Shown: positions 1 through 22,464 of the stretch, piece after piece
Layout of the letters: each line of letters starts with the position of its first letter
Numbering within the stretch: the stretch's first letter is position 1
IMG/VR virus record: IMGVR_UViG_3300024518_002419
Span: 1-26,640 of that record
DNA: 26,640 bases
Origin: a virus
Reading direction: 5' to 3' (one strand)
Made by a program: the position numbers and the translations under genes
Notes under the pieces: model-generated
The model's database searches: none
What the model was told of the DNA's origin: nothing
What the model saw: the letters and a program-made list of their open reading frames with translations, nothing else

Positions 1-1013
1 CAGAAGCCCTCGAGAAACTCTCCGATGCCGGCCGGGTCATCCCCGGGCCGCACCCTGCGCGAGCTCGGTGACTCCTCTCCCTCGATGATCCCAAACTCCT
101 CGGCCGCAAGCCTTGCTGCGGTGCGGTGCCCGACTTCCGGGCGATCACGAAAGATCTCCTCGGCCCGTGCTGCAATCTGTAATGCTTGGCGCCGCTCTTG
201 CACGGTGTCGAGCTGGAAAGTGAGCGCGCCAGTTGCATCATCCCGTGAAAACCGGGTGTTAAATATTCCCGCAACAGCGTTCGCAATCGCGTTTGAGTCA
301 GCACTCTTGAGCTCGCGGCCACCATCGGCGCCACCACCCGCCCCGGATCCTTTTGTCGGCCTGGGCGTCTTCACGGCGCCCACATTCTCACTGCCCAGCA
401 CTCTGCCGGTCCGTGGGTCGGTGCGAACGGCTAGCGTTTGCGTCGAGCCTGGTGTGCCACCGCCACCGGTCAGAAAGCTCACATCCGGCCGGTTGGCAAT
501 CGCTTGTGCGTCGCGCCGCTTGATTGCCTCCGTTGCGTTGATAGTGAGCGCGGTCATGACGTCACCGAACTGTGATAGCGTCTCCGGGTCCGCATCGGCC
601 GCCGGTAAACCGTCTTCGGTAAGGTGTGGGTTTCGGCGCAATACAGCGGTGCGCAGAACTGACCACTTGCTCGGGTCTGCCTGCACTGCGATACCGGCAC
701 GCGCGAGGTCCTCGTAAGTATCATCGAGCTGCTCACGAGACACGCTCAACGCCTTGGCTTGTGCGTCCATGAATGCCTCCGCCTTGGCAGGGTCGATCAC
801 AAGCATTTGCCTGGCTGCTTGCTGGTCCCCACCCAAAGCGCGCTCACGCAAGCCCGCCAACTGTGTGGCCTGATTGCGTGCGGTCGTGGCGGCCTGTTGC
901 TGAGCATCGAACTGCTGGCGTCTCAGCGCACGGGTTTCTCGAGACGCATTGATCGCCTCGGCCTGTCCAAGCGCACGGCCGACGTTTGGAAATTGGACGT
1001 TGAACTCAGGCAT
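1..1013 (-). CDS. Putative DNA ejection (injection) protein, partial, runs off left edge
   Basis: The frame is open from an ATG at 1013 to the window edge, so only the first 337 or so residues are visible. The protein begins MPEFNVQFPNVGRALGQAE. It is rich in Ala, Gln, Arg and Glu, with a helical Gln/Ala stretch near residues 30-70 and a Gly-rich linker near residues 225-235. I infer that it is one of the P22-type ejection proteins (gp20/gp16 class), which leave the virion with the DNA and form a conduit across the cell envelope. The inference rests on its position directly after the gp7-like gene and on its low-complexity helical composition, not on a residue signature. Its ATG shares one base with the upstream stop (TGATG), and a GGAGG-like ribosome site lies just upstream. 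Confidence 0.6.
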   Translation of the reverse strand, partial: MPEFNVQFPNVGRALGQAEAINASRETRALRRQQFDAQQQAATTARNQATQLAGLRERALGGDQQAARQMLVIDPAKAEAFMDAQAKALSVSREQLDDTYEDLARAGIAVQADPSKWSVLRTAVLRRNPHLTEDGLPAADADPETLSQFGDVMTALTINATEAIKRRDAQAIANRPDVSFLTGGGGTPGSTQTLAVRTDPRTGRVLGSENVGAVKTPRPTKGSGAGGGADGGRELKSADSNAIANAVAGIFNTRFSRDDATGALTFQLDTVQERRQALQIAARAEEIFRDRPEVGHRTAARLAAEEFGIIEGEESPSSRRVRPGDDPAGIGEFLEGF

Positions 1014-1753
1014 CAGATTCCTCCAGAAGGAATACCGGGATTGATTGGAACTCCTGCGCCACTCGGCCTAAGAGCGTTCAATAGGATTTGATTGTTGATG
1101 CCGCTCGAGATCGCGCCGGTCAGTGCATTGGTTGCGTTGATTGTGCCGCCCGCTCTCGCGTTAGCTGCGTTCAGGATTCCACCGGCCGCGGCGTTTCCTG
1201 CGCCAATCGCCGTGTTGGCTGCCCCCTGGCCAAACTGGGCCGCAGCCGCATTGCCTTGGGCTATCGATGACTCGCCGATACCGGCAAGACGCGCGAGACG
1301 GTTAAAGCGGTTCCCCTGCCCCACCTGGAAGCGGTTAAATGCGTTACCAAATTCCTGGCTTGCCAGGCCTTGATTGAACCGCAGCGCCCCCTTGATGGCA
1401 CGCCCAGAGTCCTCAATCGGACCAAGCGAGCGCTCGATGGCCTGCTCGCCCTGCTCGCGCCTGAACTCAAAACCTGGGTCGGCCTCAAAATCGGCCATCG
1501 TGAACGGCCGGGTGAGCTCCCCCCTGGCTGCAAATAACTCTTTGAGCGCGGCGGTTCCGATTGCGCGGCTCGGAGCCAAATCCTTGCGAATGAGGTTGAA
1601 CGTCTGGCGCTGGAAGTTTAGCGACCGGATAGATGCCCGATCCTGAACGCGGCTCGCGGACCTCGCGCCTTTTTCCTGGGCATCGGCCGCGGACTTCGCG
1701 CCAAACAGCCCAATAACACCGCTTGCAATCGATCCAATCAATCCCAGTGACAT
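1013..1753 (-). CDS. P22 gp7-like DNA transfer / ejection protein
   Basis: This 246-aa protein is close in size to P22 gp7 (229 aa), a minor virion protein ejected with the DNA. It has a Gly/Ala hydrophobic N-terminus (residues 3-18), a charged helix, and then segments I recognise from this phage family: FEADPGFEFRREQG (89-102), ASQEFGNAFNRF (131-142) and NRFNRLARLAGIG (148-160). The C-terminal third is a Gly/Ala/Asn-rich repeat-like tail. It sits in the expected place, after the gp10-like tail gene and before the next ejection protein, with a one-base overlap to the latter. Function is inferred from the family and gene order. Confidence 0.78.
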   Translation of the reverse strand: MSLGLIGSIASGVIGLFGAKSAADAQEKGARSASRVQDRASIRSLNFQRQTFNLIRKDLAPSRAIGTAALKELFAARGELTRPFTMADFEADPGFEFRREQGEQAIERSLGPIEDSGRAIKGALRFNQGLASQEFGNAFNRFQVGQGNRFNRLARLAGIGESSIAQGNAAAAQFGQGAANTAIGAGNAAAGGILNAANARAGGTINATNALTGAISSGINNQILLNALRPSGAGVPINPGIPSGGI

Positions 1754-1756
1754 AAC

Positions 1757-2137
1757 CTAGTACCTCAGCACGCTAACACGATAAGTGGCCGACACCGGGT
1801 TGATGGGCGCCCCCGTAGGGTTGACGAGGCGAACCGTAACAACCCCCGCAGCCGACACGAAGCCCGTGACACTCAGATTAGCTTCTAATCCGCCAGGCGG
1901 CCCAACTACCACCGGGTCGTTAACCTCTGCTCTCGCAACCGAGATTGTGAGCTCTGCATCCGCGCCGGCTGAGATTGACGGAAAATCGAGCGTAGCTGTG
2001 GCCGAGTTAATGCCTAGAAGCTGGATGAGCGATTGCCAGCTCTGTGTGACCTTATCGAACCAGTGAACCCAAGAGCCGTCACCAAGCCCAACCCTCAGAG
2101 GTGGTACGGCAAGATCGTCAACGCGCTCAGTGGTCAC
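1757..2137 (-). CDS. Small beta-rich virion-region protein, unknown
   Basis: This 126-aa protein starts at a GTG that overlaps the end of the gp10-like gene by four bases. The N-terminal third has amphipathic, Trp-containing sequence (WVHWFDKVTQSWQSLIQLLG). The rest reads as alternating beta strands with a late segment VTVRLVNPTGAPINPVSATY. From memory, small proteins with a strand pattern of this type (VxVxLxNxTGxxxxxxxGTxRVxV) often lie between tail accessory and ejection genes in podoviruses. A virion decoration or tail-tip role is possible, but no function is established here. Confidence 0.6.
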   Translation of the reverse strand: MTTERVDDLAVPPLRVGLGDGSWVHWFDKVTQSWQSLIQLLGINSATATLDFPSISAGADAELTISVARAEVNDPVVVGPPGGLEANLSVTGFVSAAGVVTVRLVNPTGAPINPVSATYRVSVLRY

Positions 2138-3570
2138 GCTGCTTGCCCTCTGGCGGCCGTCGAGCGGGCCACCTCGAGATTCATGCCGATCACAACACGC
2201 TTAACAGGGTCCGACACCGACAACTGATAAACGCGGTCACGCGAGCGGCCAAGCCGGGGCCATCTGGCACGGCGCCGGTATTCACCAATCTTGCCCATCG
2301 CGCGCCAGATCTCAGCGCTCCACGTGAAACCTCCGTCGTTTGAGAACCGCAGCATCGCTTGAGGGTCGGAGCCCTGACCGCTGTCGAGCCCCACTCCGCC
2401 CTCGAAATCGAGCTCGAGCGATACGTGCGACAGCCGCTCTCCTGAGTCGTGGATATGCTGCCCGATGATGAGTCCGCGGATAATTGCCCCGTTGTCGGTA
2501 AACTCATCGGCCCTGATCTTGTAAAGTTTGCCGGTGGAATGGTCGCTGACGATATTTTCACCAAAGGCCGATTGATGCAGGTTCGATAGATGCCGCTCGC
2601 CCGCGGTACCACTCGAGCGCTCGTGCCACTCTTTCGAGCTGGAGTCGAAAGCCCATGTCTTGCCGGCGGTCGGAAAGCTGATCACGAAGAAGATGTGCCC
2701 TTCCTGGCCATACGAGTACGCAACTGCATCATCAACGTTCGCGTATGTTTTCCATGTCGCTTCAACTTGATCGGTAGAAAACCGCACCGGCTGAAATCCG
2801 TTGATACGTATTGCCTGGAGCGCCCCGTCTTCGTGCTTGCGCCCAAGGAAACCAATCGAATCGTCAAACTGGGTGAGAGACGATTGCGCCGCTAGCCCCC
2901 AAGCAATGTGGGTGCCCCCGAGGCGGGCAAATGGAAAGTCAGCATTTCCTGTCTTGCTCCACACCTCGATGCTGCGTTCGCCCATAAGCCAGAGTTCGCC
3001 ATGATCGCCGATGAGATTCGAGATAGGGTCTGGCTGCTGGTTGGCCGAATCGAAGTCCAGCGGATCCCATGCAAGGCCGTCATTCAGCGCAGATATGAAA
3101 AACTTTTCAGTAGCCGAATCGAACACGATGAAGAACCCGTCGAGGTGGGTCACCGCTGCCGGGCTGAGCGCCGTGAAATCAGGGTCGGAGATAGTTACAA
3201 ATACATCCGTGTCCTTGTTGTAGATGTACCCATCGGTGCCATCGACAATCATCAGTTGCGTGCCATTGTCCGCGCTTGAGACGAAGCCCGAGGTTGTGTT
3301 TAAGGTGCCCTTGGCGGTGTCGACTCCGGCCGCGTCAATCGACGACAATGCCCCGCGAAAAACTGAATAAAGCTTGCCACCGAACTCGTGCAGGACGCGG
3401 GAAGCGAACGCCCCATAATCGCCCAGCAACGACAGGCCAGGCGTCCCATAGAGCGCCACCACGCTCTTGCCGTTCTGGTCAAGCTCAGGGAAGAAATTGA
3501 CGAGCTGCTCGGTGTCGACCGCCATAGACTTGCCCTTGTGCGAGCCGGTGGCAAAGGGAAGTAGCGGCAT
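2134..3570 (-). CDS. P22 gp10-like packaged-DNA stabilisation / tail accessory protein
   Basis: At 478 aa this is very close to P22 gp10 (472 aa), which joins the tail machine after gp4 and helps to close the head after packaging. The N-terminus MPLLPFATGSHKGKSMAVDTE leads to a segment with NFFPELDQNGKSVVALYGTPG, typical of this family. Repeated beta strands with Trp and Asp turns follow, consistent with the propeller-like fold known for gp10 proteins. A good ribosome site (AAGGA, seven bases before the ATG) is present. It lies between the gp4-like gene and the ejection genes, as in P22. Family membership is strongly supported; the structural role comes from the family. Confidence 0.85.
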   Translation of the reverse strand: MPLLPFATGSHKGKSMAVDTEQLVNFFPELDQNGKSVVALYGTPGLSLLGDYGAFASRVLHEFGGKLYSVFRGALSSIDAAGVDTAKGTLNTTSGFVSSADNGTQLMIVDGTDGYIYNKDTDVFVTISDPDFTALSPAAVTHLDGFFIVFDSATEKFFISALNDGLAWDPLDFDSANQQPDPISNLIGDHGELWLMGERSIEVWSKTGNADFPFARLGGTHIAWGLAAQSSLTQFDDSIGFLGRKHEDGALQAIRINGFQPVRFSTDQVEATWKTYANVDDAVAYSYGQEGHIFFVISFPTAGKTWAFDSSSKEWHERSSGTAGERHLSNLHQSAFGENIVSDHSTGKLYKIRADEFTDNGAIIRGLIIGQHIHDSGERLSHVSLELDFEGGVGLDSGQGSDPQAMLRFSNDGGFTWSAEIWRAMGKIGEYRRRARWPRLGRSRDRVYQLSVSDPVKRVVIGMNLEVARSTAARGQAA

Positions 3571-3573
3571 GGT

Positions 3574-3975
3574 TTATCCTTGGCTGATGTCGTAATCCGA
3601 GCGGTTGTTCTGGAAGTCCAGCAACCCCGGCTCAAACTTCACATCAACGAGGTTGAAATAGTAAGTCTTCAAAAGCCTGAGCCCTCGACGCGCCTCACGT
3701 ATCGTGATCGCCGAGGGCTGAGCCTCGAACAGCGGGGCGATGCGCTCGGCCAGATTGGTGATAATCGCCTGCTCATGATCTGGCGGAAGTAGAAATGTGT
3801 CACCCAAGGCAAGGTCAGTGTGCTCGATTCTGATTCCTTCGAGCGACCATGCCTTGACCATCCGGTTAAGCGCAGTCAAGACCTCCTGAGCATCATCAGC
3901 GTTCATCGGCTCGCCGGCCGCAAGCTCGCCGAGCTCTCGCAGCGCTGCCTCAACCAAGTCGCGAGCGGTGCTCAC
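3574..3975 (-). CDS. P22 gp4-like tail accessory factor (portal adaptor)
   Basis: This 133-aa protein is shorter than P22 gp4 (166 aa) but has the family's features. It begins with STARDLVEAALRELGELAAGE, followed by the helix DDAQEVLTALNRMVKAWSLEG. Next come a DHEQAIITNLAERIAPLFE segment and a C-terminal helix ending in LDFQNNRSDYDISQG. Proteins of this family bind below the portal ring and begin tail assembly. P22 gp4 also has muramidase activity, which cannot be judged here. It starts with a GTG overlapping the upstream gene by four bases and ends three bases before the gp10-like start. Confidence 0.82.
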   Translation of the reverse strand: MSTARDLVEAALRELGELAAGEPMNADDAQEVLTALNRMVKAWSLEGIRIEHTDLALGDTFLLPPDHEQAIITNLAERIAPLFEAQPSAITIREARRGLRLLKTYYFNLVDVKFEPGLLDFQNNRSDYDISQG

Positions 3976-4280
3976 TTGCTCTCGTCGCGGTCAACCGTTT
4001 CCGCGTGCTCTGCCTGCTTCTCGGCACGGAATGCTTTTGACCACTTCTTCGGGCTATCAACGTACCCATCAGGCATTTCGCCGTCGTACACGATCTTGCC
4101 CATAGGGCAATCCTTCTCGTGAAACACCCACATTGGCGGGTGCGGGGGCGGTTTCGCGGTATCCCCCTCGATCTCCGCTAAACGCTCCTCGGCCAGGCGC
4201 GCACGCTCCTCGGCCTCGGCGTGCCGGGCCTCAAGCTCATCGAGACGCTCAGATAAGTCAGTGCCGCTCAAATCTGCCAT
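3972..4280 (-). CDS. Small coiled-coil phage protein, unknown
   Basis: This protein is 102 aa long. Residues 8-40 form a strongly charged Glu/Arg/Ala coiled coil, then a Pro-rich hinge (KPPPHPP) leads to a compact C-terminal segment containing WVFHEKDCPMGKIVYDG. I recall similar small proteins beside coat genes in other phages, but none with a known function. I chose the ATG at 4280 because AAGGAG lies seven bases upstream; the in-frame GTG at 4286 would leave only one base of spacing. It is the first gene after the coat protein and the hairpin at 4299-4324, so it may be translated from a processed or attenuated transcript. Confidence 0.65.
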   Translation of the reverse strand: MADLSGTDLSERLDELEARHAEAEERARLAEERLAEIEGDTAKPPPHPPMWVFHEKDCPMGKIVYDGEMPDGYVDSPKKWSKAFRAEKQAEHAETVDRDESK

Positions 4281-4298
4281 ATCCACTCTCCTTGAAGT

Positions 4299-4324
4299 AT
4301 CGGGGCGGCGCTAACCGCCCCGAT
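4299..4324. terminator. Perfect 10-bp stem hairpin between coat gene and downstream gene
   Basis: The arms ATCGGGGCGG and CCGCCCCGAT pair perfectly around a six-base loop (CGCTAA). The hairpin lies 21 bases past the coat-protein stop in the leftward direction. No U-run follows on either strand, so it is not a textbook intrinsic terminator. It could be a partial terminator, or a 3'-end stabiliser that raises coat mRNA over downstream genes. Confidence 0.6.
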
Positions 4325-4345
4325 TGATCTACGCACTTACGCGCT

Positions 4346-5599
4346 TTACGTGTTGACAGCCCAATACCGCGCGGCGAGCTCGGGATAGATTGTTTTCCAC
4401 CCGTAGAGCACATCGAGACGGCACTTTTGCTGATCAGAGCTGATGTCGTAATCCTTGATCAGCCTGATGCTGAAGCCTTCGTGATTCACCCGTGCGCTAA
4501 AGCTCACCCCATCGGGGATCTCGAGCGGGCGCATGGCAAGGGAGAAAGCATCTTTGTGGAATGCCATGTTTTGCACGTAGTCGGTGACGGTCGCACCGCG
4601 CTCCGTGATGGCGGCGTTATCCGCAGGCACCGCGCTCACAGTCTGGTATGGGCCAGAAGTGATGATCGGGGGCGATATGGTCAACGTTGCCGGCCCGGTG
4701 CTCGCACCAGAGTTGGCATCTGCGGTCACAACGAAATCCTGAAGGAATCCAGAATCTTGCTTGCTCACCGGGTTAACGTGGTTTACACCCGCGATTGTGA
4801 ACACATCACCGGCCACCGTTATTGGAGATAGCGAGTTAGTCCAGCCATCCGTCAACAGCGTTTGGGTCCAGGTGTTCTTGGAGGATAAATAGGTAACATT
4901 CTGCGACGCACCATTGACCAGCGGGGTGCCGGTCAAAACGCCATTGGTGTGAACCTTGGTGTTCTGGTCCATGCCAAACGCAAAGCCCGCTATGTTGCCG
5001 AGCTTGCCGCGGGTGAATGCAGACTTGACCATGCCCTGTTGAAACAGAGTGGTCTGAGCGGATGCCATATCCCAGAATGCGCCAGGGTTACCCACCCACA
5101 CGCGGTCTATCGGCCCGGCACCCATGTTGCTCGGAGGCACCGCCATGTTGTCGAGCCGCTTGGATGCGACGGCCAGATCGGCAAAAGAGTTGGGTACGGT
5201 GAACGAGCCATCAGCCGAGACCGATGAATAAACATTCTTATACTCATCGAGCCCATCCGCATCGATCTTGTTCGCCAAAGCGATCATCGCCGGGCGGATA
5301 TAGCGGGCGGAAAACTCTTCAATTGTGGTCGTGAGATCCTTGGAAGTGAAGATGATAGGAACATGCTTCTGAGTTACCGCCGTGAAGGTGAAATTCGCCT
5401 CCTCGGTGTCACCGGTTCCAAGCGTTGCGCCATCGGTGACGTCGTAACGGTTGGGCCTGCGAACTCGGACAGACTCGCCATTCTTGGCGAAATCATCCTC
5501 GAAATTGCGATGGACGTTGTTGCCCATCACAAGATGGTTTTGCATTTGCAGCATCGCTTCCTTAACGATGATGTCTGGAGTGATTAGCGCAGTTGCCAC
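4346..5599 (-). CDS. Major capsid protein, P22 coat (gp5) type
   Basis: This 417-aa protein is close to the 430 aa of P22 coat protein, which forms the icosahedral shell with an HK97 core plus an inserted domain. The N-terminus MATALITPDIIVKEAMLQMQ, a following segment GESVRVRRPNRYDV, and VPIIFTSKDLTTTIEEFS (about residues 78-95) match the P22-coat family pattern. The C-terminal DISSDQQKCRLDVLYGWKTI is also typical. The start is a GTG with CGAGGA eight bases upstream. It follows the scaffold gene by 29 bases, and a strong hairpin stands just after its stop. The central Gly/Ser/Thr/Asn-rich region (about 215-330) probably holds the inserted domain, judged by position only. Confidence 0.9.
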   Translation of the reverse strand: MATALITPDIIVKEAMLQMQNHLVMGNNVHRNFEDDFAKNGESVRVRRPNRYDVTDGATLGTGDTEEANFTFTAVTQKHVPIIFTSKDLTTTIEEFSARYIRPAMIALANKIDADGLDEYKNVYSSVSADGSFTVPNSFADLAVASKRLDNMAVPPSNMGAGPIDRVWVGNPGAFWDMASAQTTLFQQGMVKSAFTRGKLGNIAGFAFGMDQNTKVHTNGVLTGTPLVNGASQNVTYLSSKNTWTQTLLTDGWTNSLSPITVAGDVFTIAGVNHVNPVSKQDSGFLQDFVVTADANSGASTGPATLTISPPIITSGPYQTVSAVPADNAAITERGATVTDYVQNMAFHKDAFSLAMRPLEIPDGVSFSARVNHEGFSIRLIKDYDISSDQQKCRLDVLYGWKTIYPELAARYWAVNT

Positions 5600-5628
5600 T
5601 TTAGTATCCTCGGGTTAGAGAGTCCTCT

Positions 5629-6588
5629 TTACCCGTACCTCTCCTCTTCTTGGCGCCTGCGGATCCGGTTGTACGTCGCCTGGTCAACTTTGTTCAGGTC
5701 CGTTTCGGCAGCGCTAGCGCCTGGGCCGCCCGAGTCGAGCGGCTGGATGGGTTCGGGGGTCTGGGAAAGCTTCGGGGCCGGCTTTGTTTCTCCGTTCCCA
5801 CCTTGCTTGGCCGAGTCGTTGAGGATGTGCTCGATCTTACCTATCTCACGGGCGGCCGAAAGCTCGCTATCGAGTCCGCAAATGCGGGTCGATTCCTTCG
5901 GGTTCTTGCCGAGCCAGTAAAGCACCTCGGCACCGTTGTCAGATTCCAAGATCGTCCTGACCATCACGTCGGATACGTCGAGGTTCACCGCATAGGCCAC
6001 AGCCGCAAAATCATCGTGCTGCGTGGTCGCTTGCTCCACCTGTTCGGTCCAATGCTCCGGGGCCTCCTCCCTGGCTTGAGTGGACTCGCTTGACTCGCTT
6101 GACTCGCGTTCTCCGGTATCCGGGGTCTTCGCGGTGCGTTTGCGTTCTTCGATCTTCCAGTCCGCCAGGGCATCGGCCCATTCCTCATCGCTGTTGAAGT
6201 CTTCGGCCTTTGGCATCGGGTCGGGGGCCGCGGAGGTGCGTTCCAGCACTTCATTGGCGCCCTCTAGATGCGCAATGCGTCGGTTTGCTTCCTCTAGCTC
6301 GAGAGCCATGCGCTCCAGCTTCCGGGTTCTCCGTGCCGCCCTACTGGGCGCCGCTGCTTCTTCGGGCGGGGCGGGTTCCTCGGACTCTTGCGTTTCGCTC
6401 TCGTCTTGCATTTGGCTCTCTTCCGCGGGGGCCTCCGCGCTCTCCTGCTCAGGCGCCGCGTCGATAGTCACCGCTTCACCGCTCCGATGGCGCACATAGT
6501 CTTCCTGGCTTAGGGCGCCAAGCTGCTCGGCGGTAAGTACCTGCGGTTCTTTCTCTTCGGTCATCTGAGTTACTTCTTCGTCTGCCAT
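5629..6588 (-). CDS. Scaffolding protein, P22 gp8-like by position and composition
   Basis: The product is about 319 aa (P22 scaffold is 303 aa). It is extremely rich in Glu, Ala, Pro, Gln and Ser, with several predicted helices, a Ser/Glu repeat near the middle and a basic C-terminal end (NRIRRRQEEERYG). This resembles the basic C-terminal helices by which P22 scaffold binds coat subunits. It lies between portal and coat genes, the standard place for scaffold. The frame extends upstream to a GTG at 6615, but the ATG at 6588 (MADEEVTQ) has GGAG nine bases before it and fits better. The role is inferred from place and composition, since scaffolds diverge rapidly. Confidence 0.75.
   Translation of the reverse strand: MADEEVTQMTEEKEPQVLTAEQLGALSQEDYVRHRSGEAVTIDAAPEQESAEAPAEESQMQDESETQESEEPAPPEEAAAPSRAARRTRKLERMALELEEANRRIAHLEGANEVLERTSAAPDPMPKAEDFNSDEEWADALADWKIEERKRTAKTPDTGERESSESSESTQAREEAPEHWTEQVEQATTQHDDFAAVAYAVNLDVSDVMVRTILESDNGAEVLYWLGKNPKESTRICGLDSELSAAREIGKIEHILNDSAKQGGNGETKPAPKLSQTPEPIQPLDSGGPGASAAETDLNKVDQATYNRIRRRQEEERYG
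6083..6107 (-). repeat. 9-bp tandem repeat in scaffold gene
   Basis: The unit gactcgctt (plus strand) occurs about 2.8 times without interruption. On the coding strand it encodes a Glu-Ser-Ser repeat. This is an in-frame microsatellite that could change copy number without breaking the gene. Confidence 0.7.
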
Positions 6589-6620
6589 TTCCCGTGTCTC
6601 CAGTCGGGCCATCACGTACC

Positions 6621-6645
6621 GCCCACAATGGGCGAGGATTCCTCG
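6621..6645 (-). promoter_or_regulatory. Two abutting small hairpins upstream of scaffold gene
   Basis: In the short spacer between the portal stop and the scaffold start, two inverted repeats meet end to end: GCCCA-CAA-TGGGC (6621-6633) and CGAGGA-T-TCCTCG (6633-6645). They could shape translation of the scaffold or an mRNA processing site. No terminator U-run is present. Function is not shown. Confidence 0.35.
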
Positions 6646-6655
6646 ACACGCCTAC

Positions 6656-8746
6656 TTACTGCAATACTCCTGCCTGCGGTTCAGGGGCGGGCTGTCCTTG
6701 CCCTGCCTCCGTTTGATTCTCCTGAATCATCTGGGCGATCTCACTTTCGATTATCGCCCTGATGGCCACTAGGTCTATACCTGCCTGCTGTGCCTTGTCA
6801 AACAGCGAAACCAGCGCCTCGAGCTCCTTGGTCTCGGCCGCGGCTACCTTGGCCTCCGCTGTGGCGAGCTTAGCCTCGCCCTCGACCTGGGCGATCTTCT
6901 CTTCCTGGCTAGGCGGCTTAGGTTCCTGCGGCTCCTCGCCGGCGTCTCCCTCCTGGAGCTCTGGAGGCAGCATCTTACGAAGCCGCTCGGCCACCTTGTC
7001 GGCAAGCGGCCAATCCATTGACTGCATCAAGAGATCGCGAATCATCGGCGCCGCGGCCGGGTCGACACCAAGATAATCGATCATCGAGTCGACCGCCTCG
7101 GCGCGCTGCGTGGCGTGTGATGGGCCGGTGCTGACCAGCACATCGAAACGTCCAGCGCTTAAATCGTGCAGCATCACTCGCTCGCCTGTCTGCTCATCGG
7201 TGACGGTCTGATTGACTCTCACAAAGTCCTCGGTGTCATCACTGAATCGAATCCGCACCACCCGCTCGGAATCGTATACCCGGGGAATCATATCGACCAA
7301 GATTTCGCCGGCATAGCGTATTGCCTTGCCGATGTTATCGATGAATACGAACGAACTGATGTCAGCCGTCGATTGCCGGGCGCGGATAGCCTTGCCGCTG
7401 GTCTCACGTGCATCGGCGCCGAGCGATGGCGGGAAAAATCCAGTCGTCGCGTTGATGTCTGAATCCGCTACCAGCATCTCTTGAGCCCATCCGGGTGATG
7501 GGAGCGGCGGCGTTGCGCGTTGCGGTGCACCCAACCCCTCGACCGGCGTATAGGGCAGAAACGCTGCGTTAGAGATGTTTGCCTCGTTCCATGCCTTCTC
7601 GTGCTCGGCTATCTGGTCAATCGCTGCGATATATGGCGCTTTGGGCTGTAGGGCAATCCCCTCGACGTGAGCCGAGCGCGCATAGTTGTACGAACGTTGC
7701 GCATCCTTGGCATGGCGAATCACCCCGCGCTTAATCACAACCCCGTCGACGTTGAGCTCTTTACCGCTCACCTCGATTATCGGAATGAACTTGCACGGAA
7801 ACTCAACCGGCCCTCGGATAACCTGGGCGCCGGCCAACAAAAACCACTCAACCTTTGAGCCTTCCACCTCACGGCTCTTGACGAGATCGACGCCGGACGC
7901 TTGTAACTCCTCGACCACTTTCTTGGTCTCGTCGTTAAGCGTGTATACAGCTCCGTTACTGAACAGCCCCACAGTTTTCTTGATCGGTACACGCCGAAAA
8001 TACTCGGCCACCAAAACGTTGGAGTCTTTCCACCACCCCTCCCACTGGACTCCCGCATCGCGATCACCCGCGAAGTCCGATATGGGGTCGGCGCCTGGAT
8101 AGCGGTTGGCAAACTCGTCCTTGTCAACCCATCGTGTGACGAAGCCAAAATTTGCGTCTCGCTTGTCCTGCTCCATCGCGTCAGGATCGAGGTATACGGT
8201 GAAAGCGTTTCTAATCCGTTTGATACGGATTACCTGATCGAATACGTCATCATCGACATAGTTGGTGATGATGCGAAAATACCCGAAACCGTGCTCGGCG
8301 CTATGCTGTCCGGCATGATCATAGGCTGAGTCTGCGTTTGATTGGCGCTCGATGTCACGAATCAGCCCTTCATAGACCTGGCTCATCTTGTATCGATTGC
8401 GGCCGATGCTCTCGATGTCTTTCCCGCCAGCCGAGCTGGCGTCGGTAGGGGATACTGAGATCGAGTTACGGTTCTGGCGCTGCGCCCCGATAACCTGATC
8501 GACGTGAGACGGGAGCTTGTTTATCGTCAACATCGGACGGTCTTTGCGAGCGGTCTTGGCCTCTGGCGACCACTGGTCCTCGCCATCGAGAAATTTCACA
8601 TCCTCCATGGCCCGGTCACGGTTGACCTTCTCGGCATCACAGCAACGACGGAACCGGTCGCGTGCCTCGGTGAGTACGTCGCTCTCCTCAGTTGATGCGT
8701 CAAACTGATTCGCCGGCTGGATTTCGATTGGGCCAAAGTCTGCCAT
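6656..8746 (-). CDS. Portal protein, P22 gp1 type
   Basis: At 696 aa this is close to P22 portal (725 aa), the dodecameric ring through which DNA enters and leaves the head. N-terminal segments RPMLTINKLPSHVDQVIGAQ and RQNRNSISVSP are typical of P22-type portals. They are followed by FDQVIRIKRIRNAFTVYLDP and, in the middle, INATTGFFPPSLGADARETS and KAIRARQSTADISSFVFIDN. The C-terminal 120 residues are a Glu/Ala/Lys-rich helix, as expected for the barrel region. Its ATG overlaps the terminase stop (TGATG), so the two are translationally coupled. Confidence 0.9.
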   Translation of the reverse strand: MADFGPIEIQPANQFDASTEESDVLTEARDRFRRCCDAEKVNRDRAMEDVKFLDGEDQWSPEAKTARKDRPMLTINKLPSHVDQVIGAQRQNRNSISVSPTDASSAGGKDIESIGRNRYKMSQVYEGLIRDIERQSNADSAYDHAGQHSAEHGFGYFRIITNYVDDDVFDQVIRIKRIRNAFTVYLDPDAMEQDKRDANFGFVTRWVDKDEFANRYPGADPISDFAGDRDAGVQWEGWWKDSNVLVAEYFRRVPIKKTVGLFSNGAVYTLNDETKKVVEELQASGVDLVKSREVEGSKVEWFLLAGAQVIRGPVEFPCKFIPIIEVSGKELNVDGVVIKRGVIRHAKDAQRSYNYARSAHVEGIALQPKAPYIAAIDQIAEHEKAWNEANISNAAFLPYTPVEGLGAPQRATPPLPSPGWAQEMLVADSDINATTGFFPPSLGADARETSGKAIRARQSTADISSFVFIDNIGKAIRYAGEILVDMIPRVYDSERVVRIRFSDDTEDFVRVNQTVTDEQTGERVMLHDLSAGRFDVLVSTGPSHATQRAEAVDSMIDYLGVDPAAAPMIRDLLMQSMDWPLADKVAERLRKMLPPELQEGDAGEEPQEPKPPSQEEKIAQVEGEAKLATAEAKVAAAETKELEALVSLFDKAQQAGIDLVAIRAIIESEIAQMIQENQTEAGQGQPAPEPQAGVLQ

Positions 8747-17361: not shown

Positions 17362-18549
17362 TCACTCAGTCAATCTTCGATGCAGCACCGTAAAAGCCAC
17401 CGCTGCCTGCAACGGCACGACGCCATTACCGGTGAGTCTAAGTCGGTCCATCCTGGCTCCCATCCCATTAGCCACTCGACAAAGCGCGGGTTCAAGCGTC
17501 GGGTCGGCTTCGAGGACTTCGCGCCATCGGTCGAGCTCGTTGGGTCCGGGCGGCCACTGGAGTCCCCCGTCATTACGGCATCGGTCAGACTCACGCCCTG
17601 ATGCACCTTTGACCCCGGAGCATTCCTGCTCCCTCCCGCTTTCGAGTCGCCCGATGTCGGCGTCGGCCAATTCTCCGCGTCCTCCGTGCGTGGGCTTGGC
17701 CACGTCTTCGTCTGCGCTTCTAGCCCCTCCTGAACTTTCTTCCCGTCGTAGTAAAGGCTGCCCTGCACTCGCTCGGCGTGGTCCGTGCTGCGACCACCAG
17801 TCGGGGCATTCGGGGTTTTCCACAAGCCAACATTTGTTGGGGTCGTGACATCGGTTGGGGTCATAACAGACGGAATAGTATCGGCAGTATTCTTGCGGTC
17901 CTGGGATTTCTTCGCCCCATTCATCAACCAGTGGGTCGTCGCCCACGTCTCCAAGCTTGGCCGCTCCGGGCCGTCCGGGTTCGCCCCTCCCTTGTTTCGC
18001 CCGTAGCTCGTCGCGCTCGGCGTCGGATACTCTCGCGAGAAGGAAGAACCGCTCACGCCTGTGCGGGGCACCCACGCTTGACGCTGGTATACGCTCCCAC
18101 TCCGCATCGAACCCGAGGTCGGCAAGGTCTCCGAGTACTCGTCGCATTGGCCCGTTAGCAAGCAAACCTGAGACGTTCTCAATGAATACGTACCGGGGTC
18201 GAATTTCCCCAATAAGCCGAGCAAACTCTGACCAGAGTCCTGAGCGCTCACCGTCAATACCGGCTCGCTTTCCGGCAACGGACAAGTCCTGGCACGGGAA
18301 TCCGCCAGAGACGATATCCACGAGGCCACGGAACGGTTTACCGTCGAAGGTGGTAACGTCGTCCCACACAGGAGCCCGGTCCAGGGTCTCGTCTTCCATC
18401 CGTGCCACGAGCACGGCCGCCGCGTATGCTTCCCGCTCAACGTAAGCGACAGTTGCCAGGTTTCTGACGGCAATCTTGAGTCCGAGCTCGAGTCCTCCGG
18501 CGCCGGCGAACAGGGCAAGATTGGTGAATGGAGCCACATCTATCGACAT
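17362..18549 (-). CDS. DNA (cytosine-5) methyltransferase, orphan phage type
   Basis: This 395-aa enzyme transfers a methyl group from SAM to cytosine C5. Motif I is LFAGAGGLELGL (13-24). Motif IV is GGFPCQDLS with catalytic Cys86. Motif VI is ENV (124-126), motif VIII is within APHRRERFFLLA, and motif X is GNGVVP near residue 375. The target-recognition region is Gly/Arg/Asp-rich and carries a short CYDPN/CHDPN repeat. No restriction enzyme gene is adjacent, so it probably protects phage DNA or marks it. I chose ATG 18549 because motif I follows closely; the frame extends to 18627, and no start has a strong ribosome site. A second long frame shares almost the whole gene (see the entry at 17370). 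Confidence 0.85.
   Translation of the reverse strand: MSIDVAPFTNLALFAGAGGLELGLKIAVRNLATVAYVEREAYAAAVLVARMEDETLDRAPVWDDVTTFDGKPFRGLVDIVSGGFPCQDLSVAGKRAGIDGERSGLWSEFARLIGEIRPRYVFIENVSGLLANGPMRRVLGDLADLGFDAEWERIPASSVGAPHRRERFFLLARVSDAERDELRAKQGRGEPGRPGAAKLGDVGDDPLVDEWGEEIPGPQEYCRYYSVCYDPNRCHDPNKCWLVENPECPDWWSQHGPRRASAGQPLLRREESSGGARSADEDVAKPTHGGRGELADADIGRLESGREQECSGVKGASGRESDRCRNDGGLQWPPGPNELDRWREVLEADPTLEPALCRVANGMGARMDRLRLTGNGVVPLQAAVAFTVLHRRLTE
17370..18539 (-). CDS. Possible overprinted ORF inside the methyltransferase gene
   Basis: A 389-codon frame, +1 to the methyltransferase, is open from an ATG at 18539 to a stop at 17370. Its N-terminal third looks like a shadow (Ser/Pro/Leu/Arg). 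The rest contains elements I remember from a family found in many phage genomes: DSGQSLLGLLGKFDPGTYSL, RTSQ, TLPTSGSMRSGSVYQ, repeated PTP boxes (EYPTPSATSYG, WPTPTSGDSKAGG) and the C-terminal LNPRFVEWLMGWEPGWTDL. The methyltransferase reads the same last box as EPALCRVANGMGARMDRL, which is also familiar for phage enzymes. It may be a true second product or a family created by mis-framed predictions. No strong ribosome site precedes it. Confidence 0.4.
   Translation of the reverse strand: MWLHSPILPCSPAPEDSSSDSRLPSETWQLSLTLSGKHTRRPCSWHGWKTRPWTGLLCGTTLPPSTVNRSVASWISSLADSRARTCPLPESEPVLTVSAQDSGQSLLGLLGKFDPGTYSLRTSQVCLLTGQCDEYSETLPTSGSMRSGSVYQRQAWVPRTGVSGSSFSREYPTPSATSYGRNKGGANPDGPERPSLETWATTHWLMNGAKKSQDRKNTADTIPSVMTPTDVTTPTNVGLWKTPNAPTGGRSTDHAERVQGSLYYDGKKVQEGLEAQTKTWPSPRTEDAENWPTPTSGDSKAGGSRNAPGSKVHQGVSLTDAVMTGDSSGRPDPTSSTDGAKSSKPTRRLNPRFVEWLMGWEPGWTDLDSPVMASCRCRQRWLLRCCIED
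17835..17870 (-). repeat. 18-bp tandem duplication in methyltransferase variable region
   Basis: The plus strand shows two imperfect adjacent copies of about 18 bp, both containing gttggggtc. In the methyltransferase frame they encode DPNRCH and DPNKCW; in the overlapping frame they encode repeated TPT. It looks like a local slippage duplication in the target-recognition segment. Confidence 0.5.
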
Positions 18550-18708: not shown

Positions 18709-19146
18709 TCAAAACGGGACCTCCATGAGCTCCGGCTCGCGCTCCTCGATGATGTACTGTGCATCCTCGACGCTGCGCGCTACACCGGCAACACCGCCGA
18801 ACTGGCGCACCCGGTCGATAAACGCTTGCTGCTCGAGCGTCGGCCGGCCGTCCCACTTCTTGACCTCGATGGCCATGAATCGACCATCCTTCATCTGCCC
18901 AAGGATGTCGGCGCATCCCTTGAACGCGAATCGTATCCATCGCTCGGTGGTCTTGTTGGTCTTCTTTGAGGTGTATTCGGCCTTGGTCGATCCGGTGTTC
19001 ATGCGGTGCGCCCAGGCAACCTTCGGGTGGTGCTTGAGCAGGACGATGATGGCGGCCTGTATCTCGGCCTCGGAGGCGTATGTGGAGTACGGGCCGGTCG
19101 GTGCCGGTGCTTTACCGAACCCCATATCGCGTTGTTTAGATCTCAC
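18709..19146 (-). CDS. VRR-NUC domain nuclease
   Basis: This 145-aa stand-alone VRR-NUC protein belongs to the PD-(D/E)XK superfamily, seen in FAN1-type nucleases and in many phages, where it is thought to act on branched or recombining DNA. SEAEIQAAIIVLLKHHPKVA begins the fold with Glu26 and Glu28. FKGCADILG supplies Asp80, and MAIEVKKWDGRPTLEQQAFI supplies Glu94 and Lys96. The start is a GTG overlapping the stop of the 36-aa membrane peptide gene (GTGA), with GGAG seven bases before it. This fits better than the ATG at 19125 or a longer frame to 19200. It probably serves phage replication or recombination. Confidence 0.8.
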   Translation of the reverse strand: MRSKQRDMGFGKAPAPTGPYSTYASEAEIQAAIIVLLKHHPKVAWAHRMNTGSTKAEYTSKKTNKTTERWIRFAFKGCADILGQMKDGRFMAIEVKKWDGRPTLEQQAFIDRVRQFGGVAGVARSVEDAQYIIEEREPELMEVPF

Positions 19147-19253
19147 CCATAAGCTCCGACAAGGGCTTGCGCTAAAAGGTAGAGCACCATCGCCGCGCAA
19201 CCGAACAAGCCCAGGCAGCCGATGACCGACATGATGGTGCGGAGCATGTTCAT
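19143..19253 (-). CDS. Short hydrophobic membrane peptide (36 aa)
   Basis: The ATG at 19253 opens MNMLRTIMSVIGCLGLFGCA, followed by AMVLYLLAQALVGAYG. It is almost wholly a single transmembrane helix, with a possible lipobox-like LFGC. Its stop overlaps the GTG of the VRR-NUC gene. An 11-codon ORF (MPSGGGLNKMT) preceded by a purine-rich site ends in an ATGA overlap with this start, so translation may pass by reinitiation. No known family was recognised. Confidence 0.45.
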   Translation of the reverse strand: MNMLRTIMSVIGCLGLFGCAAMVLYLLAQALVGAYG

Positions 19254-20329: not shown

Positions 20330-20544
20330 AAAGCTCGGGCTTTGACCTTATGGCACCAATTGACGAGCTCGGAGAAATTCACGGTCGCCTCGGGGTCACT
20401 GAGCCAAATATTCTCTAGTACGCCAAGAATCGCGGTGCCGGATTTATCGGGTTGTGCCATGCCTTGTCCTCTTGGTGGCTCGGGTGGGGTCGGGTCATAG
20501 GTCTCGACCTCGCTCGGGTGGTACAGGGGGCGCGCGTAGCTCAC
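20326..20544 (-). CDS. Small protein coupled to the helicase gene (72 aa)
   Basis: The start is a GTG at 20544 overlapping the helicase stop, with GGAG five bases before it. An ATG at 20460 with AGAGGA six bases upstream would give a 44-aa form (MAQPDKSGTAILGVLENIWL and on). The first 27 residues are Pro/Glu/Tyr-rich and unstructured. The rest is a compact helical domain (DPEATVNFSELVNWCHKVKA). No family was recognised. The tight link to the helicase suggests a replication accessory role, which is only inference. Confidence 0.5.
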   Translation of the reverse strand: MSYARPLYHPSEVETYDPTPPEPPRGQGMAQPDKSGTAILGVLENIWLSDPEATVNFSELVNWCHKVKARAL

Positions 20545-21743
20545 ACCCGCTCCCCGACAAATGCTCGAGCACCGTCGACGTACAGCGATATCGGCGCGGC
20601 TCGAGCGGGGCCGCCGCGGTTCTTCGCTATCAGCATCTCGTAGGTGTCGGCGGCCGGACCTACGCCGTGCGTCCCGTGGATGAACAGCACCACATCGGCA
20701 TCCTGCTCGATGTTTCCGCACTCGCGCAGGTCGGAAAGCCTCGGCCGGCGCTTCTCCTTTTCGACCTCGCGAGACACCTGGGACAGTGCCAGGATGGGCA
20801 TCTTGAGCTCCATGGCGAGCTGCTTGAGCGTGCGGCTCACCTCGGCGAGCTCATCGAAGCGGTTGCGCCCCTGGGAGCGCACGAGCTGAAGGTAATCCAG
20901 CACCGCAAGCTCGATGCCATGCACGTTTCGCCACTCCACGATGCGCCCGGCGATCTCCGCGAGGCTAGAGCTGCGGTCATCCACCCAGATAGGCCAATCG
21001 GCCTCGGGCTTGGTGTTGGCATAGGCGCGTTCGCCGAGCTCGACATCATCCATCTCGAGCGAGCACAAACCCACCGGGGTGCCGCGGATCCCGGCGCGCA
21101 GCGCAATCTGCCAGGCAAGCGCGGACTTGTATTTGCCGGGCCGCCCACCCAGGACGTAAAGCCTCGGTCCGTAGAGGCCACCGAGGAGGATGTCTAGCCC
21201 GGGGAGAGTGGTCGATACCCCCACAGCGAACCCGTCATTCCTGGCTTTCGCCCTCACCTCTCGAGCACTCATGGTCGCCTCGAGCACCCGCTGGAAACTC
21301 TTGCTCTCACCGCTGCGGGCCACGATGCGCTGTAATCCGCGGATGGTATCGGTGATCGCGTCCGGGTTGAGCGGGAGCGCCTCGAGGGCGTCGTGGAGCA
21401 ATACAGAAGCACGGCGTCGGTTCGAAAGCGAGCGCACAGCCATCGCGTACTTGTCGGCATTGGCGGTCGAACCGACATAGCGCTGGAGCTCTCCCAGGTA
21501 GCCCAAGTCTGCCCCGTCGAGCTCGACCTGGCGTTCAGCGAATCGCTCGTAAATCGAAAAAGCATCGGCGACCATGCCCTGACGGATGTAGCTCGAGCAC
21601 TGGCTGAAAATCTCCCGATGCACCGGTACCGCGAAATCATCGACCTCGAGCTGACCGAGGCGCCAGAACGTCGAATTGTCCGACAGCACGGCACCCAGAA
21701 CTGATTGCTCGGCATCCAGGCTGTAGGGCTCAGTTGAGGGCAT
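20541..21743 (-). CDS. Replicative DNA helicase, DnaB type
   Basis: This 400-aa helicase unwinds DNA at the phage fork. The N-terminal DnaB domain is seen in LDAEQSVLGAVLSDNSTFW (9-27). The RecA-like core has a P-loop-like GRPGKYKSAL (200-209), SLEMDD (228-233), Walker B LAVLDYLQLV (279-288), and then LALSQVSREVEKEKRRPRLS and EQDADVVLFIHG. The P-loop departs from the usual GxxxxGKS because Tyr replaces the second Gly. I chose ATG 21743 over ATG 21749 because GGAGG is six bases upstream of the former and abuts the latter. It overlaps the initiator gene by 14 bases, an O-P like pair. Confidence 0.88.
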   Translation of the reverse strand: MPSTEPYSLDAEQSVLGAVLSDNSTFWRLGQLEVDDFAVPVHREIFSQCSSYIRQGMVADAFSIYERFAERQVELDGADLGYLGELQRYVGSTANADKYAMAVRSLSNRRRASVLLHDALEALPLNPDAITDTIRGLQRIVARSGESKSFQRVLEATMSAREVRAKARNDGFAVGVSTTLPGLDILLGGLYGPRLYVLGGRPGKYKSALAWQIALRAGIRGTPVGLCSLEMDDVELGERAYANTKPEADWPIWVDDRSSSLAEIAGRIVEWRNVHGIELAVLDYLQLVRSQGRNRFDELAEVSRTLKQLAMELKMPILALSQVSREVEKEKRRPRLSDLRECGNIEQDADVVLFIHGTHGVGPAADTYEMLIAKNRGGPARAAPISLYVDGARAFVGERV

Positions 21744-22464
21744 ATTCATCCTCCGGTTTCGAGTCGTCGATTCGCTGCTGTTCGTTCGACATCCAGGCGG
21801 CTATGTGGCGCCGAATTCCTGCCTTGGTTTTCCGTCTGGTGGGATTGCTCAGGTTCCACTCTCGGATCTCTCTCATCTCCTGGTGGATATCTACTCCTGG
21901 AAACGCCTTTGCTAGTTCGACTAGATATTCGCTGGTGACTTTGAAATCATCGCTACCGTTTTTCAGTGGAATCGTGATTTTTTCCAGTTCGAGTGAATCG
22001 CTCGGACAAATGCCTTTATCTACATCTGCATCTGCATCTGCATGTGTGGACATTGGTGGACATTGGTGGACATTGGTGGACACGTCCGGTTTTAATTGCT
22101 CTGCGGCTCGTTGCCGGCGTTTGTCCTCTCGCCACTTACTTCTGCGGTCTTCGTTGCTTTTGATGTCCCGGTACTTCTCGTAATTGACCAGCCGCCAACC
22201 CCAGGGCCTGTGGGTGTCCATCCGCGAGATGCGTCTCCCATCGTTGCCGGCCGTGCGTGAATAGGGGTCATCGGCCTCGAGCACAGAAATCCCTTTCGCG
22301 AGGATGTGGGCCGGGATGCTGGTGCGGGCCGAGATTGCGTCGATTGTCATGTCTACGATGCCGGCAGGGTCTGCCAGAACGATGAGCTGTTGCATGGTGA
22401 CGATTGCCTCCCAGTGACCGAACAAAGTCCCGTCGTACATGGAGTCAAAGATTTTTCCGTACAC
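21730..22464 (-). CDS. Phage replication initiator-like protein (lambda O position)
   Basis: The protein is 244 aa from a GTG. The N-terminal domain (about 1-98) looks winged-helix: MYGKIFDSMYDGTLFGHWEA, ISARTSIPAHILAKGISVLE, ADDPYSRTAGNDGRRI and HRPWGWRLVNYEKYR. A very basic linker follows (SKWREDKRRQRAA, about 109-121), then a repeat-encoded segment (129-149). A C-terminal domain ends with NPTRRKTKAGIRRHIAAWMS (207-226), a pattern I know from phage replication proteins. It precedes the DnaB-like gene, so it probably melts the origin and loads the helicase. Tandem DNA repeats inside the gene may be its binding sites, as in lambda O. The ribosome site is weak. Confidence 0.68.
   Translation of the reverse strand: MYGKIFDSMYDGTLFGHWEAIVTMQQLIVLADPAGIVDMTIDAISARTSIPAHILAKGISVLEADDPYSRTAGNDGRRISRMDTHRPWGWRLVNYEKYRDIKSNEDRRSKWREDKRRQRAAEQLKPDVSTNVHQCPPMSTHADADADVDKGICPSDSLELEKITIPLKNGSDDFKVTSEYLVELAKAFPGVDIHQEMREIREWNLSNPTRRKTKAGIRRHIAAWMSNEQQRIDDSKPEDEYALN
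22023..22080. repeat. Tandem repeats within initiator gene, candidate replication origin
   Basis: On the plus strand, catctg occurs three times in a row (22023-22040) followed by a variant catgtg. After tgga come three exact copies of cattggtgga (22051-22080). The 10-bp unit is not a multiple of three, so each copy encodes different residues; this argues against a protein-level repeat and for a DNA-level one. The first unit encodes Ala-Asp pairs. The position, in the middle of the initiator gene just upstream of the helicase gene, is where lambda keeps its ori iterons. Confidence 0.5.

Follow-up and report, generated by a model that had tools for sequence, protein, structure and literature searches.

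Two described systems come closest to the locus studied here, namely M.EcoHK31I, which recognises YGGCCR, and M.AquI, which recognises CYCGRG; M.EaeI is similar to M.EcoHK31I. The small polypeptide (beta) of M.EcoHK31I, attributed to work of Lee, Kam and Shaw from 1995, is said to lie internally within the large gene, nested in its +1 frame, and reportedly comprises about 176 aa. Both polypeptides of this enzyme are required for activity: the large one carries motifs I-VIII and X together with the predicted target-recognition domain (TRD), while the small one has just motif IX (PMC3404938). M.AquI is a natural split C5-methyltransferase consisting of a polypeptide with motifs I-VIII and another with TRD and motif IX, and the complementation of C5-methyltransferase fragments in trans is well documented (PMC3404938).

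Here, we investigate two overlapping frames from a stretch of viral DNA of 26,640 nt (the window), which is part of a P22-like, podovirus-type phage. The respective features are listed in Table 1. We interpret the locus as a single gene that encodes both subunits of an m5C DNA methyltransferase in overlapping frames and assign this reading a probability of about 0.82, where translation, heterodimer formation, activity and biological role are inferred. Its basis is given by open frames, selection on both of them, conserved paired starts and the homology of the C-terminal half of beta to the part of single-chain enzymes between motifs VIII and X; data on translation, binding or methylation are lacking for alpha and beta. 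Elsewhere in the window, we find P22-like head genes (DNA ejection, head closure, coat, scaffold and portal) and a DnaB-like helicase (1013-8746 and 20541-21749, - strand). The gene adjoining the methylase (18709-19200, - strand) encodes a VRR-NUC domain nuclease (PF08774, E=4.9e-7).

Table 1. Coordinates of the two overlapping frames and their features within the window.
Feature	Position	Strand	Remark
alpha subunit gene	17362..18549	-	C5-methyltransferase catalytic subunit, 395 aa, motifs I-VIII and X, motif IX absent; subunit role inferred
alpha motif I, LALFAGAGGLELG	18481..18519	-	
alpha motif IV, GGFPCQD, catalytic Cys	18286..18306	-	invariant in alignment A2
alpha motif VI, FIENV	18172..18186	-	
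alpha motif VIII, RRERFFLLA	18034..18060	-	
alpha motif X, LTGNGVVP	17413..17436	-	GNG invariant in A2
beta subunit gene, +1 frame	17370..18539	-	389 aa, target-recognition/motif IX subunit; subunit role inferred
beta start region MWLHSP	18522..18539	-	family signature start-(x)-W-[LIV]-[YFH]-[VIL]-P
beta PTP-box region	17646..18029	-	candidate target-recognition region
beta YPTP box (YPTPSATS)	18006-18029	-	
beta MTPT box (MTPTDVTTPTN)	17832-17864	-	
beta WKTP box	17802-17822	-	
beta WPSP box (WPSPRTED)	17679-17702	-	
beta WPTP box (WPTPTSGD)	17646-17669	-	
beta motif IX, LNPRFVEWLMGWEPGWTDL	17439..17495	-	overlaps alpha pre-motif-X segment

The alpha frame matches phrog_363 of the PHROGs (E=6e-66) and PF00145 of Pfam (E=3.5e-35), where the latter match is confined to residues 11-180, i.e., up to motif VIII. 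The match of the alpha family profile to solved C5-methyltransferases (e.g., M.HhaI and M.HaeIII) ends at about position 178 and thereby also extends through motif VIII. An initial annotation of this DNA had described a complete C5-methyltransferase with motifs I, IV, VI, VIII and X. All of these motifs are present and in order, including PCQ of motif IV and ENV of motif VI. The completeness has to be revised: since the alpha chain has neither motif IX nor the target-recognition region, both of which are located in the +1 frame, the enzyme frame represents an incomplete C5-methyltransferase. Between motifs VIII and X, alpha shows low conservation and is broken by stops in some relatives, and its motif X lies directly downstream of the DNA that encodes motif IX of beta.

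The beta frame begins 10 nt downstream of the alpha ATG and terminates 8 nt short of the alpha end. We recover what had been noticed about it beforehand, i.e., a +1 frame open for 389 codons that contains multiple PTP boxes (five are located) and a C-terminal motif, identified as LNPRFVEWLMGWEPGWTDL; the DNA of the latter reads EPALCRVANGMGARMDRLRLTGNGVVP in the alpha frame, which had been pointed out as a familiar motif as well. Beta is conserved among 67 aligned relatives, where its residues W240, T242, P243, W291 and P294 are nearly invariant. Beta matches phrog_1008 (E=4.9e-29) and phrog_27243 (E=3.4e-8), as do 56/56 of its aligned relatives. Both are existing phage families annotated as unknown function or DNA methyltransferase, and the overlap with the methylase frame is missing from their descriptions. 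No Pfam match was obtained for beta alone, comparison of its sequence with solved structures gave only spurious matches (mostly to MS2 coat protein), and a plasmid search with beta found nothing. The AlphaFold model of beta alone has a mean pLDDT of 53 and exceeds 90 solely in the motif IX helix. That is, the model is poor, such that the fold remains unproven and the model is unfit for a fold search. Beta may need alpha for folding.

To assess the openness of the +1 frame, we permuted synonymous codons within alpha, which preserves both the alpha protein and its codon usage. On average, 7.7 stops are found in the +1 frame of permuted sequences, and only 1/20,000 permutations is free of stops (P=5e-5). 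Searching with beta identified 195 viral relatives, of which 80 with about 25-50% identity were retrieved. In nearly all of the latter, no stop interrupts the +1 frame between the methyltransferase start and the end of FVEWLMGW, and alpha usually reaches motif X. Within 82 divergent loci, we observe 0 stops in the +1 frame vs. 274 expected from codon permutation; the +2 frame of the same loci shows 926 stops vs. 1020 expected. The zero count is partly ascertained, since the +1 open stretch was chosen around the motif. As an independent check, bacterial genomes were scanned with the pattern VEWLMGW alone and hits were confirmed by tblastn against beta. Here, 78/80 loci keep the +1 frame open from the start of the methyltransferase, and alpha passes motif IX in 69/80. 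Respective taxa comprise Alphaproteobacteria, Myxococcus, Burkholderia, Chloroflexi, Verrucomicrobia and others. Thus, an interruption of the +1 frame in relatives, which would have refuted the proposed dual coding, is not what is observed. The doubly coded gene is found in well over 100 distantly related phages and prophages. Single-chain enzymes show 3-8 +1 stops in the matching N-terminal region, and in split or internally nested relatives the +1 frame opens only part-way in.

The starts of alpha and beta are 4-10 nt apart in most loci, and their stops are usually within about 30 nt of each other. Where alpha passes motif IX, the stop offset has a median of 14 nt (10th-90th percentile -29 to +16). 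A beta start codon is present in 75/77 relatives (60 ATG, 11 GTG, 4 TTG), while the alpha residues at this place are variable. The subsequent Trp2 of beta is fixed (66/66), and alpha varies there among V/M/L and A/D/G/V. An overlap of the alpha start with the beta ATG in the form of (G/T/A)TGAATG occurs in 56/133 loci, and the frequency of Shine-Dalgarno-like words is highest 13 nt upstream of beta.

These observations bear on two other ways in which beta could be produced. It might be made only as a frameshift fusion, i.e., translation starts in alpha and shifts to +1 near motif VIII such that motifs I-VIII of alpha are joined to TRD and motif IX of beta. This would fit single-chain relatives, in which the beta-homologous segment is fused to motifs I-VIII, as well as several loci where alpha ends just past motif VIII. 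However, such a fusion needs the downstream +1 half alone, yet nearly all loci from the genome scan are open from the methyltransferase start and ATG, GTG or TTG is kept at the beta start. Furthermore, the product would be without motif X, which is in frame 0. We consider a fusion unlikely. To the same degree, we doubt that beta of the window is produced from an internal start near motifs VI-VIII with an open but untranslated N half. Internal opening of the +1 frame is indeed seen for other loci (L138, L139 and L145-L152) and is annotated for KIEL007_53 of Paenibacillus phage Kiel007. For the class of the window, however, the N half has only 4 stop-containing columns vs. 73 expected, the signature of start and Trp is conserved, and synonymous divergence is reduced. 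One of the nested-type methylases (L145, 1480-2600) shows alternating Thr/His codons (THTHTHTHTHT) in its N-terminal part, which is a possible slippage-prone repeat.

The interval between motifs VIII and X is the expected place of the target-recognition domain and motif IX. In DillTech15 gp66, a single-chain mycobacteriophage methylase, and other single-chain relatives, PTP boxes and FPEWMMGWPAGW are found within this interval in the enzyme frame; that is, the segment equivalent to motif IX of beta sits in frame. DillTech15 gp66 shares motif order, PTP boxes and FPEWMMGWPAGW as motif IX with the window, but encodes everything in one frame and has many stops in +1. Based on HHalign, positions 215-351 of beta align with positions 245-407 of single-chain methyltransferases (probability 97.8%, E=8e-13). 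The predicted structure of a single-chain relative (L103) is a C5-methyltransferase with pTM 0.72 that matches M.HhaI and M.HaeIII over the full length. Given that beta aligns with the single-chain VIII-X region including PTP boxes and motif IX, it carries what alpha lacks. Beta could nevertheless be a real protein other than a subunit of the window's methylase, e.g., an overprinted DNA-binding protein or inhibitor, and the absence of both a Pfam match and a confident fold for beta alone leaves room for that. Against it stand the HHalign result, the presence of motif IX in beta while missing from alpha, and that beta never occurs without the N-terminal region of a methyltransferase just upstream (80 genome loci). 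We rate this even lower than the fusion or an internal start.

The initial annotation had also argued that, if both frames are under selection, the locus is a long overprinted gene pair possibly recurring in many phage methyltransferases, and had suggested studying synonymous-site constraint among homologues. We performed respective comparisons. For the region from motif VIII to IX, 20 pairs show 0.355 changes per codon at alpha position 1, i.e., the wobble position of beta, vs. 0.271 at alpha position 3 (position 2 of beta). This order is the opposite of that of an ordinary gene. We also compared the divergence of fourfold sites for the 11 close pairs with comparable flanking genes. Here, flanks show a value of 0.389 and the alpha N half only 0.165, where the latter is below the flanks in 11/11 pairs (Wilcoxon p=0.001). 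Within VIII-IX, fourfold divergence is 0.109 in the alpha frame with an alpha identity of just 0.625, and 0.331 in the beta frame with an identity of 0.754. Phage recombination can affect such comparisons with flanking genes. The flanking-gene control for single-chain enzymes was limited to 3 pairs, so within-gene controls were used instead: the fourfold ratio of N half to recognition region is 0.78 for single-chain enzymes, 0.98 where beta starts internally, and about 0.5 for the class of the window.

Constraint on the beta frame is also visible at the level of individual residues. FVEWLMGW is invariant in 67/67 rows, while its wobble positions are free in the beta frame. Motif IX varies synonymously in this frame (GAG/GAA, GTC/GTG/GTA, CTG/CTC/CTA/TTG, GGN, CCN), and the alpha amino acids change correspondingly. 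Likewise, the Trp, Pro and motif IX residues of beta are fixed where the overlapping alpha residues are variable. In six loci (L033, L082, L083, L177, L178, L180) the alpha frame stops just past motif VIII while the +1 frame is still open. Two of these were read out (L033 and L178) and show several stops within the alpha linker with motif X surviving downstream. As both loci retain an intact ORF with motif X downstream of the stops, the respective enzyme may consist of three pieces.

Not all tests were informative. When codon pairs were permuted jointly, the N half showed no more +1 identity than the null model; the test is weak because position 3 of alpha is position 2 of beta. Plain position-3 rates show no clear difference to mycobacteriophage controls, which we attribute to the strong codon bias of mycobacteriophage genomes, and are not relied on. 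A per-site codon-choice test was discarded, since high z-scores were obtained for +1, +2 and controls alike.

Both frames are under purifying selection, which is clear for the C-terminal half, while support for the N half is weaker and comes from stops, starts and synonymous constraint. That the C-terminal half of beta (PTP boxes, motif IX) is coding is established by several independent signals. Its N-terminal half is very probably translated, given that stops are avoided and the start is conserved. Residues W2, P6, L57, P64 and W74 of this half are conserved beyond the needs of alpha, and it may partly be a leader owing its existence to the initiation of beta next to alpha. That is, selection acts over most of the length and the pair recurs in phages and prophages, as anticipated for a long overprinted pair; codon-position rates, fourfold sites and fixed beta residues are at odds with the relaxed selection on the +1 frame that would have spoken against it. 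We therefore hardly grant any room to a mere shadow frame, kept open and conserved through alpha conservation and codon bias only: parts of the +1 N half (e.g., SETLPTSGSMRSG) do mirror motifs VI-VIII, also in single-chain methyltransferases without beta, and the permutation test finds no excess +1 identity there, but neither the absence of stops over 82 loci nor the +1 stops in the same region of single-chain enzymes fit a shadow, nor do beta residues fixed where alpha varies, beta being open where alpha has stops, or VIII-IX wobble following the beta frame.

Within the favoured two-subunit reading, alpha would be the catalytic subunit with AdoMet binding, Cys nucleophile and motif X, and its part between VIII and X would merely form a fast-drifting linker. 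Beta would supply the target-recognition region and motif IX. Both would be translated from their paired starts and assemble in trans into one active enzyme. How this arrangement evolved can only be inferred. Starting from a single-chain enzyme encoded entirely in one frame, frame changes flanking the recognition segment may have placed the segment in +1 without moving motif X out of frame 0, and selection may then have favoured translation of beta from a start beside that of alpha. Since relatives of all four kinds are available (single-chain, split, internally nested, and overlapped over the full length), the transition is traceable. Whether catalytic and specificity subunits overlap over about their whole length (about 390 codons each) with one initiation region, possibly a fixed stoichiometry and an own function of the beta N half is a question on which we see the odds as even. 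Concerning its role, no restriction gene was recognised among the examined ORFs of the P22-like phage window, which is why we infer that the enzyme is probably an orphan phage methylase protecting phage DNA from host restriction.

To our knowledge, few long gene pairs on one strand overlap from one end to the other, and the reality of the second frame is what is usually questioned. In the present case, the domain absent from the first frame is precisely what the second provides. Annotation is inconsistent, i.e., records of Acidovorax phage Alfacinha and a Synechococcus phage provide one frame and Paenibacillus phages two. Phage methylases annotated from one frame may therefore be half enzymes, such that assays of activity or specificity could be misleading if only one frame is cloned. 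Comparing coordinates and translations, Alfacinha gp46 and the CDS of Synechococcus phage Ssp-JY39 are the beta frame. In three loci (L006 646-1761, L002 1501-2667, L259 1379-2107), the beta frame alone is annotated (as hypothetical protein or cytosine-specific methyltransferase) and alpha is unannotated. For Kiel007 (L256), GenBank lists nested DNA-cytosine methyltransferase ORFs at 726-1796 and 928-1632 in frames 0 and +1, and many P. larvae phages show the same double annotation. KIEL007_53 resembles beta in being nested in +1 within the first methylase and ending with NPDWVECLMGFPIGWTD; it differs by its internal start and length of 234 aa, and is an annotation only, without experimental support. 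In two loci (L080, L092), apparent single-base frame changes shift motif IX or X between frames, which are probably sequence errors or recent frameshifts.

Finally, we relate the locus to the known two-polypeptide systems. An m5C methylase of Paracoccus, Pyei1_p05, with a 2.0 kb gene and homologues shown to be active, was set aside. As in M.AquI, the C5-methyltransferase of the window is split between a polypeptide with motifs I-VIII and one with TRD and motif IX. In M.AquI, however, motif X is with motif IX on the small subunit, while it is in the alpha frame of the window. An M.AquI-like layout is seen in three relatives, i.e., EagleEye gp89/gp88 (L005), L222 and L246, where alpha ends after motif VIII and a +1 ORF holds the recognition region with motifs IX and X; in L222 and L246, this frame is already open at the methyltransferase start. 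With M.EcoHK31I, the window shares a large polypeptide with motifs I-VIII and X and motif IX on a second polypeptide, whose gene, reportedly also for M.EcoHK31I, lies within that of the first in +1. The predicted TRD of M.EcoHK31I is in the large subunit, whereas the whole VIII-IX region of the window is selected in beta and drifts in alpha. Furthermore, M.EcoHK31I beta is said to be internal and less than half as long, in contrast to the beta frame of the window, which starts and stops beside alpha. Finally, M.EcoHK31I is from a bacterial restriction system, while the gene of the window is from phages and prophages. We found no description of a full-length overlap in the open-licence literature. 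The principle is already known from M.EcoHK31I; new are the full-length overlap with paired starts, the location of both recognition region and motif IX in beta, and the breadth among phages.
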